Below, piece by piece: positions 1-58,300 of a stretch of 64,000 nucleotides of DNA. The DNA is from Cliona cf. orientalis (Eukaryota > Porifera > Demospongiae > Clionaida > Clionaidae), in contig OZ005705.1 of the NCBI GenBank assembly GCA_963930775.1, forward strand, positions 7,068,001 to 7,132,000, in the 5' to 3' direction. The position numbers and the translations under genes are program-made. Each line of letters opens with the position of its first letter. Within the stretch, counting starts at the first letter, position 1. The notes below the pieces were generated by a model. It did no database searches. It was not told the DNA's origin and worked only from the letters and a program-made list of their open reading frames with translations.

Positions 1-3000
1 TGTGAGACTAGAGGGGTGGGGGCAGGAGCTGTGCTGGTGCTAGTGGTGGATGAGGAGGCTGGTTGCTGAGGTTGGGAAGAGGGGGCGGTGCTAGGGGCGG
101 AGGAAGGGGCGGAGCTAGATGAGGAGGCGACTGTGGCTGGTGCTGAGGTGGCGGTATTAGCGGTGACTAGCTTCTTGGTGACTCTCCTCTTGATGACTTT
201 GGTGGTAGGGTCAGGAGTGGTCACTTCACCGTCGGGAATGGCTAGGACAGGTTTGTGCACTTCTGAGACTAGATACTGACACACAGACACTGCTGCAGCC
301 TAAAAAAATAGGAGAAAATATACCCCGATCGAAAAAATTGTCAAAAAGGTCTCAAAAAGTAATCTTTCTTGGCTTACCTCTAGTTCATCTCTGTTGAACA
401 TGACTTTGATGGGTGATGGTCTAGTGGCCGCGCTGAGCAGCTGCTGGAAAAGGCTGAACTGGTCTCCCTCAGAGGAGGCGGGGCGGGCCATGATCTGACG
501 AAGGTTCTCCTGTTGACTGAAGAGGACTCGGGCAGCCTTCAGGAGACCAAGACGAATCTGCTGCTGACGGAGCAGGGGCACATCAATTGGCTCTTCTGTA
601 GTAACAAAGAGTAGCAAAATCATTGGCATGAAATAGATAATATCAATATCACAAATTTAATGCTCTACAATAATATACACACATGGTTGTAACCCTGTGC
701 ATGATTTAAGACTTACGTTCTGTCTCTGGCTTTGAGGCGAGTGACTTTGCTGGTTTTTGTGTGAGAGAGGGAGGTTGGAAGAGTCCGCCAGGAAGGGCAG
801 CTGAAGAGGAGCCAGCAGCTGTTCCCGCCAGCCTCACTAGGCTGCTCCAGATACCCATCACCGTCTCACTCATTGGCAGCTGGTCCACTCGGAAACTAAG
901 ACCTGGCAGCTGCAGGAAAATTACACTTAGACTCTAGTTGTCATAAATACTGTGATTTGATTGGTTAAAACAAGGGTTCTAAGTTACTTAAAACCCCTCT
1001 ACTTAGAAAGCTAGTTCTTTAGGCAACAACATACAAAAAGTTACTAAGCAACAGCATGCTAGAGTCTAAATAAGTTAGACACTTCAGCCAATGGGATCTA
1101 CAGTCTTTAGAATACTTCAGACACTTATAAAACCCTCAGGCTTCACCTTCGGGATTTTATATCAGTGTCTTCAGTATTCTAAATCCTATAGATCCCTTGG
1201 CTTCAGTGTCTAACTATTATTTAAAAATTGACCCCTGCACATATGCGTAGCAGTAGCAGATAAATTATCATCCCATAAACTTTGTCGTCAAGCATACAAT
1301 TTGCAAATGGAGCCAAAAAGCTTAACATTAGTTTCACTAATGGCTACAGTGTATACATACATTACAAACTACACTATAGGATGTACTGGCTTAATGGTGA
1401 TGAGAGGGCACATTTTGGCAGTCTTCATTCCGTGAAAGAGCACTACCACCTTTGACTTGCTCTCAATCTTGGCTATGGTTCCCATTCCCAGTTCCTCATG
1501 CTGGACGAGACCTCCAAGGCGGGGCCTCGTGTCCAGCCCACCAATCACGGTGAGGACAGCAAGCACCGGTCCATGGGTCATCACATCCCTTTCAAGCTGA
1601 ATAAGGCATAATACATGTACATGATATTGTACACGTACATACATATCAAATGGATACATGTACAATGTACAAGGGGTTAATTTCTACTCATGTACATGTA
1701 CATGTGCTAAGCCAATATTAACCAAAGAACCTGAAGTTTATCATTAATTTTAGACCAACATCAGTCACAAAAAACGTAAGGTGTACATGTACCTGTTGTT
1801 CCCTCCTGGTGCTGAGCGAGGTGGTGTCCCCCGTTGTCATGGTGATGAGCTTTGGAATGGTCTGGAGACTGCGGCTGATGAACTGGTTGATGAGGGGGTT
1901 CCAGGCAGGAAGTGGGTGGAGCCTACGCAGCAGGACGACAATCTCCTCGGCGATCGTGCTACTTTCGGAGGCAGTCTGAGAAGCATGCAGCTTAAACCTC
2001 TTACGATTTCGCCCTATACAAGTTAAAAAAATACAAGTAAAATGCCGCACCACTTTTTTTCTTTTTTAACTTCTGACCTGGCTTGAGTGGCTTGATGAAA
2101 GGCGAGCTGCAGATGACTAGAACCTCACCGAGAAGAGAAAAGAGTGTTTCGACGAGCTCTCTCTGCTGAACAGTGTTGTGACCAGGCTCCCAGGAAGGAA
2201 GCACAGCACGAAGAAGACGCAGAGTCAGAACCTGTGGGGGAAAATCATGACATTGTGTAAGAGTGCTCTGTATGTGTATGGATAAAAAATTTTCAGCATA
2301 ATTATTATATAGGGCTTCTATATAAAATGGTACAGGGTCGTCACGGCACTATGCATATATGACTTGACAAGGTAAGCTACGTAGCAGTTTCAACTTGGGT
2401 ATATACCGTAGTTAATCGAATACAATGCATGATTTAACGCAATAAATTAGCATTTTACGAATTCTCACAACGTTTATATATGGAGCGATTGACGACCTTC
2501 ACCAGAAAACATGCGTTTTTCAAAATTGAACTTATTTTTTCCATGTGTAGTATTAGAGTAAGTACGGTAAGTACAGACCTGCTGCACTAGTGCCTTGGAG
2601 TGTGATCCCTTTGACCTTGCCAGAGGAGAAGCCTCCTTGATGACCTCCATCATCAGCTCAATCCATCGTCGGGTGCAGAAGGCACGCCCGGACTGCTTAG
2701 TGGTGGACACGCCCCTCAGGAAGCCAAGGGTAGCCCAGGTCTCATGCTGCTGGGCAGCAATGGAGTTGATGTCCGACTGGTTCCTTATGTCTGGAAACAT
2801 GAAACCAAAATTTTATAAAGAGAGAAATTCAGTATACCGTAGCTAATCGAATACAATGCATGGTCCAATTTAACACAAGAAATCAGCATTTTACGAATTC
2901 TATAATATATGGAGGGATTGACGACCTTTACCAGAAATGTCAAAATTGAAATTATTTTTTTCCATGCGTTGTATTCGATTAAGTACGGTAGATTCATATA

Positions 3001-55300: not shown

Positions 55301-58300
55301 GCCAAAATTTGGAGAATAATTAAAGTCTCGATATCTCGGTAAATGAACATGGGGGCGTGACCTGGAGTGAGAATTAGTGTTAATCCAAGAACATCTTCGT
55401 CCTACCAGAGTTTTGAGAAGTTTTGAAAAACTTCATTTTTTCATGTGGAAACCCTACTGTATACTGTAGCCATATATGGTTATAGACATTACCACAAGTG
55501 GGGATTTAACTCTAGTTTACGGTACTGGGAATGAAAAATGGCTGACTTTGCTATGCTAAAAACGAAGAATAAGCTATAACTCGTGAGAGAAAGCTTTTTA
55601 GCGAAATCCCTTAGTTGAAAACCTTTGGAGTTTGGCGAAAAATTGGCTGGTACGTTCATTTTATTGTATAAATGTCTTATACAGGCAGTAGACTGGTAAC
55701 AAACAAACAAACAAACAGACTACAGTAACCCTCGTGCGCATGCGCGCCGAGCGTTAATCATGAGTTTTCTGAACTTGTAGGAGAGCGCATCTTTTATGCC
55801 CTCCAGGTTAGGACACGGACTATATAAGAAAATTTTCGCTCTGAAAAATATTTTTCGTTGTATATAATATAGTATAACTATTCATCATCAAGCCTACTTC
55901 AATTCCTAATAATATTTTAACACACCTTGTCTGAGCAAAGTCATAGGCAGTACCAGCTCCAACCTTGGGCAATCTCCTGACAGCAGTCTTTACCTCTCTG
56001 TTGCTCTCAAAGGCAAAGAAGGCCGAGCTTCTGTCGGAGAAGAACACTTCAATGGCCCTGTTCTGGTGCAAGTAGTGCCGTGAAAACACAGCAACGACGT
56101 CTTGGAGGGGCCACTGCTCATTCAAACAACAGTAATCAGCCTGTAGTAGCATAAGCAAGCAATCATTGTGAAAGTGTCATATTCTGCAAGAATTATAATG
56201 TCTAATCCATAATAATTCAGAAGGGGTCTATAATAATACAGGGGCTCCCTAGACAGTAGCCAAATTAGCCATTTGCTACTGTATTCTTCACTTTGACTAC
56301 TACTCCCAGCTGGATTGGCCATTTTCACCTTCACAAAATTCCTTTGAGGTTAGCTCCAATTGTTGGTGAAATCTTTGAGAAACGGCTATAAGATTTGGTA
56401 AGCTTTGGGAACCCTATATTATTCGCTCATGAAGGTACAACAGACAGAGATACTGATGTGCCTAGCTTAGCTTGAGAATTTCTGAATTTTAATTCTAAGA
56501 CCTATCCACGACAACCACGAAAAGAGAAATGTTTGTGAAACCCACCAAATACGAGGCGTTTTCATACTCTTCCGTGCTGTCATCTGCAGTGAAGGTGAGA
56601 GAGGTTCTAGTGAAGGCCAGGGTTCCAGGAATGGAGTGAGCCAGGACCACCATGGAGCAGGGGATGGTCAGCAGCAGCTGCTCCGACTTGTCCAGCTGCT
56701 CTAGTGGAAGCTCCCCCGGGTCATCTGAACTCAGGCTAACTACTTCAAAATTTGAGGCTTTATTGAGTGCCGCAGCATCAACGGAGCCCGGGAGACCAGC
56801 TGCCAGTTCTCCTTCAGCAGCTGTTGTTGGTTTGTTCCCCTCCTCCTCCTCTTCGACGCTGCGGATGGCACTCTCGTGGACAGAGCCAGCTGGGTTGGGA
56901 AGAAATTGTAGCCTTTGACGAAGAGAATCCTCCTTCAGATCCAACTGCCAAAATTTGGAGTGCCTATACAATAAGTAAAAGTGAATAGTTATGATAAAAT
57001 TCATTGTCAAATAAGAAGTGTTCACTTTAATGGGGTGACATCAAATGATCCATTTTCATCGACCACAGAAGATATCTGAGAGGGAGAAGCAATGGATGAA
57101 CATTATGTACACACGGTTCATTTCTCGTGCACAGACCTTCCTCCAAAGGTTTCTGGCGGAGACAGAGTGTCTAGTGACATCCGCCCTCCTCAGCTGCATG
57201 CTCTCGTTGGCACTCCGGATGGACTGACTCAGGAACAAAGACAGCTGCTCCTGTGGTGGTATCAACGGAAAAAAAACCATTGCAACGAAACACGAAAGTT
57301 ATCACTGAGTCATGCGAGGCTATAAAAGTCAAGTTGTTATTATTTTTACCTCAAAATCTGTAAATTTTGTGATTTGATTGTTGAGCAGCTGCTCTATGCT
57401 GGTCATGGCTTTGGAGGCCACACCCCTCATGTAGGACTCACAGAAGCGAGCTACGTGTCTACAAATTAAAAATCGCATCATGAATGTCCAAATTAGCCCC
57501 ATCCCCGGGCCCATTCCGTTTACCTTCCCTCAGCAAGGAGCTCTGAAAACACTTTGCCACCATTCTTCTGCAGAGAAGCTTGCCACTCCTATAAGTATGT
57601 ACCATAGGAAAGTACAGCATTAATATAGTGTAATATCTACGTACATATAATATTATGTACATGCAACAAGTGACTAGTTACCTGTGAGCATAGGAGCATT
57701 GTTACCTCCACAACCGACTTGTTTCGTGCCAACCCCATTACAGCTGCAAGTAATAAACAAACCATCATCACTGTAATACCGTATAGCCAGAAATATTGGC
57801 GGGAAATAAATTTAGCGGTTGAGCCCCAAATCGCTATTAAGAATAGTGGCGGGACGGTTCGGTACGGGATCGCCATATGTATATAGGCGAGTAGGAAATT
57901 TTGGCGGATTTCAATTTGGCGGTTGTAATATAGACCGCCAAACCGCCAAATTTAATTCCCCGCCAAATTTTCCGGCTATACGGTAATATTATCATCACAG
58001 TAGCCAGCTCATCCATCTAGCTCATAGCATACCATACCGTACCATCAGTAAGGAGAGATTTTCCATCAGCTCCCACCAGAACCTTGGAGAGAAGTGATTT
58101 ATGTTCGATGAGCAGCTGACAGATGAAGGGTCCGGTCATCTCCATGGCTGCCTCCACCTGCTCAGAGATGTCCAGGGCATGAGTTCGAAGAGTGAAGGAA
58201 GAGGGAGCTAGTGACTGCTCTGGTGGGCCACCTTGGATGAAACTAAGAGCCTGCTCCTGAGGTGAGGAAGATTCCGCTTCGTTTGTTTCCAAACTTGATT

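Follow-up and report, generated by a model that had tools for sequence, protein, structure and literature searches.

A 64,000-nucleotide stretch of the genome of the sponge Cliona cf. orientalis (GCA_963930775.1, contig OZ005705.1, positions 7,068,001 to 7,132,000; hereafter the window) contains eleven short inverted-repeat elements that begin and end with TACCGTA or a variant differing in one or two bases. These elements are miniature inverted-repeat transposable elements (MITEs): short, present in high copy number, provided with terminal inverted repeats (TIRs) and devoid of a transposase gene. We consider it likely that they are the MITEs of a diverse clade of pogo transposons with two genes, in which a cleavage signal common to the whole clade is combined with binding words private to each family. 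Judged from the sequences compared, the feature that the MITE families have in common is a clade of related transposases and not one enzyme.

All eleven elements that had been claimed for the window are present, with lengths between 150 and 398 bp. The exact heptamer is found at both ends of five of them: A1 (2404..2569), A2 (2835..2990), B1 (8090..8310), E (34912..35309) and B3 (57777..57985), the latter being a copy of B that is shorter internally. The remaining six show one or two base changes at one end or both. Three have TACCATA at both ends, namely A3 (4979..5128), D1 (7346..7534) and D3 (51944..52143). The left end reads TACTGTA in B2 (22927..23147, orientation opposite to B1) and TATTGTA in C (10305..10516), and the right end of D2 (7873..8067) has decayed to TGCTGTA when read inwards, which amounts to two changes. 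Imperfect TIRs of 20-37 nt are seen in nine of the eleven elements and one of 11 nt in D3; D2 is skipped by the end-anchored TIR scan and shows a 19-nt inner match at 7878-8062. A transposase or HIRAN profile match was not obtained in the entire window.

Chance as the source of the shared ends is ruled out by the counts of single sites, pairs and genomic copies against their controls. On both strands of the window TACCGTA occurs 20 times exactly, against a mean of 2.75 and a largest value of 11 in 100 dinucleotide shuffles. Inverted pairs of the heptamer at 100-450 bp spacing number six (shuffle mean 0.005, largest 1, 200 shuffles), of which five correspond to single elements and one (7873 with 8310) spans two adjacent elements. 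This pair count should be read with some caution, as among the 64 TANNNTA words the AT-rich TATAATA (11 pairs) and TATTATA (10 pairs) exceed TACCGTA; both have 68 single sites in the window against 20 for TACCGTA. In the host genome (217 Mb in 149 contigs) the pattern TACCGTA-N(180-210)-TACGGTA, which covers one class of 31 lengths, has 2216 occurrences and its reversed form has 92, so that segments bounded in this way are far more frequent than the control. Exact TIR ends of 22-27 nt are found 618 times for B, 490 for C, 416 for A (with a 22-mer as probe), 525 for D and 162 for E, and the reversed controls yield 0 for each of the five.

Longer elements with the same ends and a DDE/D transposase, as the original prediction had suggested looking for, are indeed present in the genome. 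Searching with Pfam DDE_1 resulted in 150 scored matches from 210 candidates, and 51 distinct transposase loci (L numbers below) were examined using generic scans for any TA-flanked inverted ends. Full TACCGTA end pairs, 2.2-3.1 kb apart, occur at 14 of these loci: L025, L031, L034, L052, L053, L054, L055, L056, L057, L058, L060, L065, L067 and L069. Because later loci were picked by similarity to the L034 transposase, the ratio of 14 to 51 does not measure how common such elements are in the genome. Other ends are TACAGT (11 loci), TAGCGTA (4), TAGAGTA (1) and TACTGTA (2, L064 and L068), and for the remaining 19 loci no end pair was found in the stretch examined; L062 shows one TACCGTA end only.

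Comparison of these elements with the window shows that B and E each arose by deletion, B from an element of the L060 type and E from a different one of the L056 type. Positions 1-89 of B1 correspond to the last 90 bp of L060 (86% over 90 bp) and positions 129-221 to its first 93 bp (85% over 95 bp). Likewise, positions 1-169 of E correspond to L056 1-160 (83% over 169 bp) and positions 312-398 to L056 2245-2331 (90% over 87 bp). The TIRs of B and L060 are identical over 27/27 nt, those of E and L056 over 26/27. A TTTCTTCTAAAAATTCGGC MITE family matches L069, and another listed genome element carries the end of L034. For the other window families the nearest elements are less close: C is nearest to L065 and L057 (70-86% over 37-83 bp), D1 to L054 (81% over 70 bp and 74% over 78 bp), D2 also to L054 (85% over 40 bp and 78% over 63 bp) and D3 to L052 (80.5% over 77 bp of the 3' end).

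Non-autonomous inverted-repeat elements with a common terminal signal and replaceable interiors, as initially proposed, are supported by these results, though the number of families was underestimated at five. In 50 listed places of the genome pair pattern (first 5 Mb of contig 1), assigned by hand-written string rules, eight families are recognised plus four unassigned: 15 places belong to B, 12 to C, 9 to a GGWCGGGTTTTAATTGCG family, 6 to the TTTCTTCTAAAAATTCGGC family and 1 each to four others, and two of the places have one right end in common. What was taken as a single family D represents at least two, since D1 and D2 match the ends of L054 whereas D3 best matches the 3' end of L052. Nor are the families unrelated throughout: B and C have TATAGCnnGAAA in common.

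The idea that a single transposase moves all families by means of the terminal heptamer alone would explain why the heptamer is common to all of them. Nevertheless, the elements from which B and E stem encode different transposases and, as shown below, the TIR interiors track the transposases, so that one enzyme for all families is not supported. Also, seven bases are few for a genome of 217 Mb, given that the reversed pattern already yields 92 pairs by chance in a single class of 31 lengths. We therefore regard this explanation as very unlikely. On a smaller scale, some cross-mobilisation is plausible where two families are close, as with B and C: they share TIR letters beyond the heptamer and their nearest transposases are 47-50% identical, so a single enzyme could perhaps act on the two.

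A tree was built from 37 DDE cores, and it places all 13 rows with the label TACCGTA together in a clade of 17 members (support 1.00). L062 received this label from one end only, and L067 and L069 are not in the tree. The four members of the clade without this label are L064, which ends in TACTGTA, and three rows for which no ends are known. Next to this clade is a second one (support 1.00), made up of the TAGCGTA and TAGAGTA rows plus two rows with unknown ends; the TACAGT rows are located outside both clades. One could argue that unrelated transposase lineages each arrived at TACCGTA, as many elements of the wider superfamily have a TA target and short conserved ends. However, the position of the TACCGTA rows in one fully supported clade, next to clades with other ends, disfavours such convergence, which we consider the least probable of the explanations and hardly credible.

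The relationship between ends and enzymes can be followed within 13 TACCGTA elements (without L069). Similarity over TIR positions 8-34 correlates strongly with transposase identity (r = 0.84, 77 of 78 pairs), and none of 5000 permutations gave a value as high. Transposase identity in this set ranges from 98% down to 19% while the heptamer is constant, the latter by choice of elements. That the heptamer is nearly fixed in the clade is based instead on the count among elements with known ends, which is 14 for TACCGTA against 2 for TACTGTA. The two TACTGTA elements (L064 1354-3158 and L068 673-2501) have TACTGTAAACCCAATAATGTTA ends and are without a HIRAN match. Large DDE_1 elements with TAGCGTA ends are located at L047 2812-8601, L048 3221-6928, L049 2185-5691 and L051 3373-7432, and one with TAGAGTA ends at L050 2128-6585; their frames measure 464-1129 amino acids and a psq domain is present in L047.

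The target site could be deduced from a B element at L039 3691-3912, which is inserted within a TACAGT-ended transposon. The same transposon occurs at two other genomic places (L018, and L022 which equals L041) where the site is empty and has a single TA, with 162/162 letters identical. The duplication is thus TA, which leaves CCGTA...TACGG as the element itself. This empty-site result applies to one B insertion and to family B only; in the other families the elements have TA at their ends and nothing longer, which agrees with a TA duplication but is weaker evidence. The DDE_1 match C1:13499744 beside a B end was considered as B's own transposase and rejected, as it concerns a TACAGT element with an inserted B MITE, which served for the empty-site comparison.

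Beyond the heptamer, most families carry short words of their own. For each element we took the outer 180 bp at either end, determined which 9-mer was most frequent there and compared its count with 200 shuffles. A repeated 9-mer, matched by at most 4 of the 200 shuffles, is found in ten of 12 TACCGTA elements (L031 and L058 fail), for instance AATTTGGCG with six copies in L060, AGAGCGGCG with five in L056 and TAAGCGCCA with four in L025. The words occur in both orientations in seven of these ten elements and in a single orientation in L053, L056 and L057; it should be noted that an inverted repeat by itself yields two word copies. Among the MITEs, words above the shuffles (at most 1 of 200) are seen in B1, B2, B3, C and E; A1-A3 and D1-D3 have no word repeated beyond the shuffles. 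Private internal words had been claimed in both orientations for B, C and E. They are repeated in all three, but the top 9-mer of E occurs in one orientation only. In the TAGCGTA/TAGAGTA elements repeated words are found in one of five. The L025 element (449-2798) is itself nested in a TACCGTA-ended element of another family (L025 296-3087), and the word of this outer element, TTAAGCGC, resembles that of L053.

Taken together, the following mechanism can be proposed. Every autonomous family has a DDE_1 transposase of its own and also codes for a second protein, which contains a HIRAN domain. The DNA-binding domain of the transposase would bind the private words repeated near both ends, and its catalytic domain would cut at the clade-wide CCGTA...TACGG signal set in a TA target, presumably by cut-and-paste. 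Relatives would keep the cut site while the words change together with the binding domain. MITEs would retain the end signals after gene loss and be moved in trans, each transposase probably moving mainly its own family. The HIRAN protein, finally, may act on the 3' ends exposed by cleavage.

This second gene is the unexpected part of the system and the one worth following. In all 14 TACCGTA elements there is a second frame with a HIRAN domain or remnant, 12 of these being strong and the remnants being those of L025 and L031. The HIRAN profile was seeded from L034, L054, L055, L057, L058, L063 and L065, so a match is bound to appear in these seven loci; of the 14 TACCGTA elements, eight are not seeds. 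The domain is also found in five of the 11 TACAGT elements (L012, L019, L039, L041 and L042). Within the stretch examined, the other six gave no HIRAN match, and neither did five TAGCGTA/TAGAGTA loci. The HIRAN frame is convergent to the transposase in ten of the 11 elements laid out and divergent in L056.

Pfam HIRAN exceeds its cut-off of 24.7 bits in L054 (32.7), L055 (26.0) and L063 (26.7) and remains below it in L057, L058, L034 and L017. Five matches of the HIRAN protein to solved structures were obtained, all of them HLTF with E-values of 0.1-0.23, and no solved structure was matched when the HIRAN alignment was used as a profile. In the one alignment shown, the HLTF stretch NN..D is met through its second N and its D by an N and a D of the transposon protein. 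Over nine diverged HIRAN copies 14 columns are invariant, including this N and D. In L055, L057, L060, L063 and L065 the HIRAN protein extends into a ULP1-like protease part; the L060 copy is interrupted by a frame change. The C48 profile is over its cut-off in L060 (24.5 against 20.7 bits), below it in L055 and L063, and gives no match in L057. In all three intact ULP1-like copies HW, D and Q.....C are aligned, residues which we presume to have catalytic roles.

An alternative explanation is that the HIRAN frame is a passenger, that is, a captured fragment of a host gene without a role in transposition. In its favor, only 22 of the 97 genome HIRAN matches are near a listed transposase (within 3 kb, where 0.46 are expected), L025 and L031 have remnants only, and L064 and L068 have none. 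Still, a passenger does not easily account for a HIRAN signal in 14/14 TACCGTA and 5/11 TACAGT elements, for the predominantly convergent layout or for the invariant columns in diverged copies. Another indication comes from the ratio of nonsynonymous to synonymous substitution rates (dN/dS) between L057 and L065, which is 0.18 for the transposase part compared (13 changes) and 0.35 for HIRAN-ULP1 (11 changes, counted from a Met common to both copies), though 11-13 changes are too few for firm values. Overall we judge the passenger explanation to be unlikely, yet clearly less so than a single transposase. Several of the HIRAN matches away from listed transposases have equal scores and frame lengths, which makes them look like repeated families.

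HLTF HIRAN binds the 3'-OH end of single-stranded DNA and needs its N90-N91 pair for its function at 3' ends (PMC11237066). Based on the domain content we tentatively suggest a two-component pogo transposon, a possibility that we rate below the general scheme above. In such a transposon the transposase would choose the ends by fast-evolving private words and cut at a fixed, clade-wide CCGTA signal; the HIRAN protein would then bind the freed 3'-OH ends, and in one group its ULP1-like part would remove SUMO or a related tag from repair proteins. At these ends the HIRAN protein may serve in protecting them, in pairing them or in handing them to host repair.

Several observations weigh against the scheme of a two-gene clade with a fixed cut site and private words. 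The heptamer has exceptions: TACTGTA ends are found in L064 and L068, and as L064 lies within the TACCGTA clade the end signal can drift. HIRAN is not seen in either of these elements, its scores are modest where present, the matches to solved structures are weak, and 75 of the 97 HIRAN matches are not near a listed transposase. The alignment profile used for the tree was seeded from ten clade members, and its root (L009/L010) was set by choice. Partners of C (L057/L065) and D (L054, L052) are relatives rather than exact parents. Family A, including A1 with its exact ends, has no autonomous partner among the elements compared, and none of the A-family ends near DDE_1 matches by coordinate (first 100 of 416 places) is arranged with them as one element. 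The empty-site test was clear for one of 41 element readings; these include the L065 reading, which falls in a TA repeat and is ambiguous, and that of L006, which aligned poorly. Finally, repeated words are also found in five of seven TACAGT elements, so this habit is not private to the TACCGTA clade.

Pogo elements are described in PMC7386202 as having one or two open reading frames encoding transposases and TA, TAA or TAAA duplications; Passer is given there as DD35D with BrkDBD and HTH_Tnp_Tc5. The TACCGTA elements resemble Passer, a member of the pogo superfamily (PMC7386202 and PMC9976928), in the DDE_1 domain, the TA duplication and the short TIRs. The L056 transposase carries both BrkDBD and HTH_Tnp_Tc5, and by hand count the last two catalytic D are 35 residues apart in nine of 12 transposases and 36 in three. 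Unlike Passer, which is described with a single gene, the TACCGTA elements all carry a HIRAN gene or remnant. Furthermore, most transposases scanned are without a recognised DNA-binding domain. When whole TACCGTA elements were scored for HTH_Tnp_Tc5, BrkDBD, CENP-B_N and psq, an N-terminal pogo-type domain was over the cut-off in L056 and L053, below it in L060 and not found in L055, L057, L052 and L054. The comparison with Passer covers these features.

The Tigger/pogo TACAGT elements of the same genome are similar in having DDE_1, TA-flanked short TIRs and in some cases HIRAN, but differ in their end signal and in their position outside the TACCGTA clade. With HLTF HIRAN (PMC11237066 and PMC4666394) the second protein shares the Pfam HIRAN domain and the conserved N and D. 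In contrast to HLTF, the transposon protein is without a helicase or RING part and is either stand-alone or fused to the protease. Ginger DNA transposons reportedly also carry a ULP1-like protease (PMC2836005); in the pogo-type elements described here this part is the C-terminal part of the HIRAN protein.

HIRAN is not mentioned in the main texts of PMC7386202, PMC7325037, PMC9219625 and PMC9976928. Among the papers listed by the literature searches none was recognised by title as dealing with HIRAN in pogo elements; most subscription journals and Repbase fall outside the coverage of these searches, and these elements may already be catalogued there. Judged likewise from the listings, searches on sponge MITEs or on these TIR letters gave nothing relevant.

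The value of this system is that one genome offers a natural series of transposases, from 98% to 19% identical, in which the heptamer is kept and the subterminal words change. With such a series a fixed cleavage signal can be separated from a swappable recognition signal, and the co-evolution of binding domain and binding site becomes directly testable. The results also suggest that one pogo clade is able to seed thousands of MITEs in many families. If functional, the HIRAN gene would represent a transposon-borne factor that binds DNA ends, a role that we did not find described for pogo elements in the papers searched. Should the two-component reading hold, cut-and-paste transposition would gain a new accessory factor, one that binds DNA ends.

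Some other repeats were observed along the way. An inverted-repeat element of 251 bp with TACCTTATTTCCTCGAAATCTCGCCA ends is located beside two related DDE_1 loci (L045+L036 6359-6609 and L046+L037 6350-6600). In the window, positions 6785-7217 and 8521-8890 form a related pair of long inverted repeats with arms of 89-115 nt that are 94-97% complementary; the ends are not TACCGTA and the pair probably represents another MITE-like family. CT/GA and poly-C/poly-G simple repeats are numerous and scattered over approximately 9750-58620 of the window.

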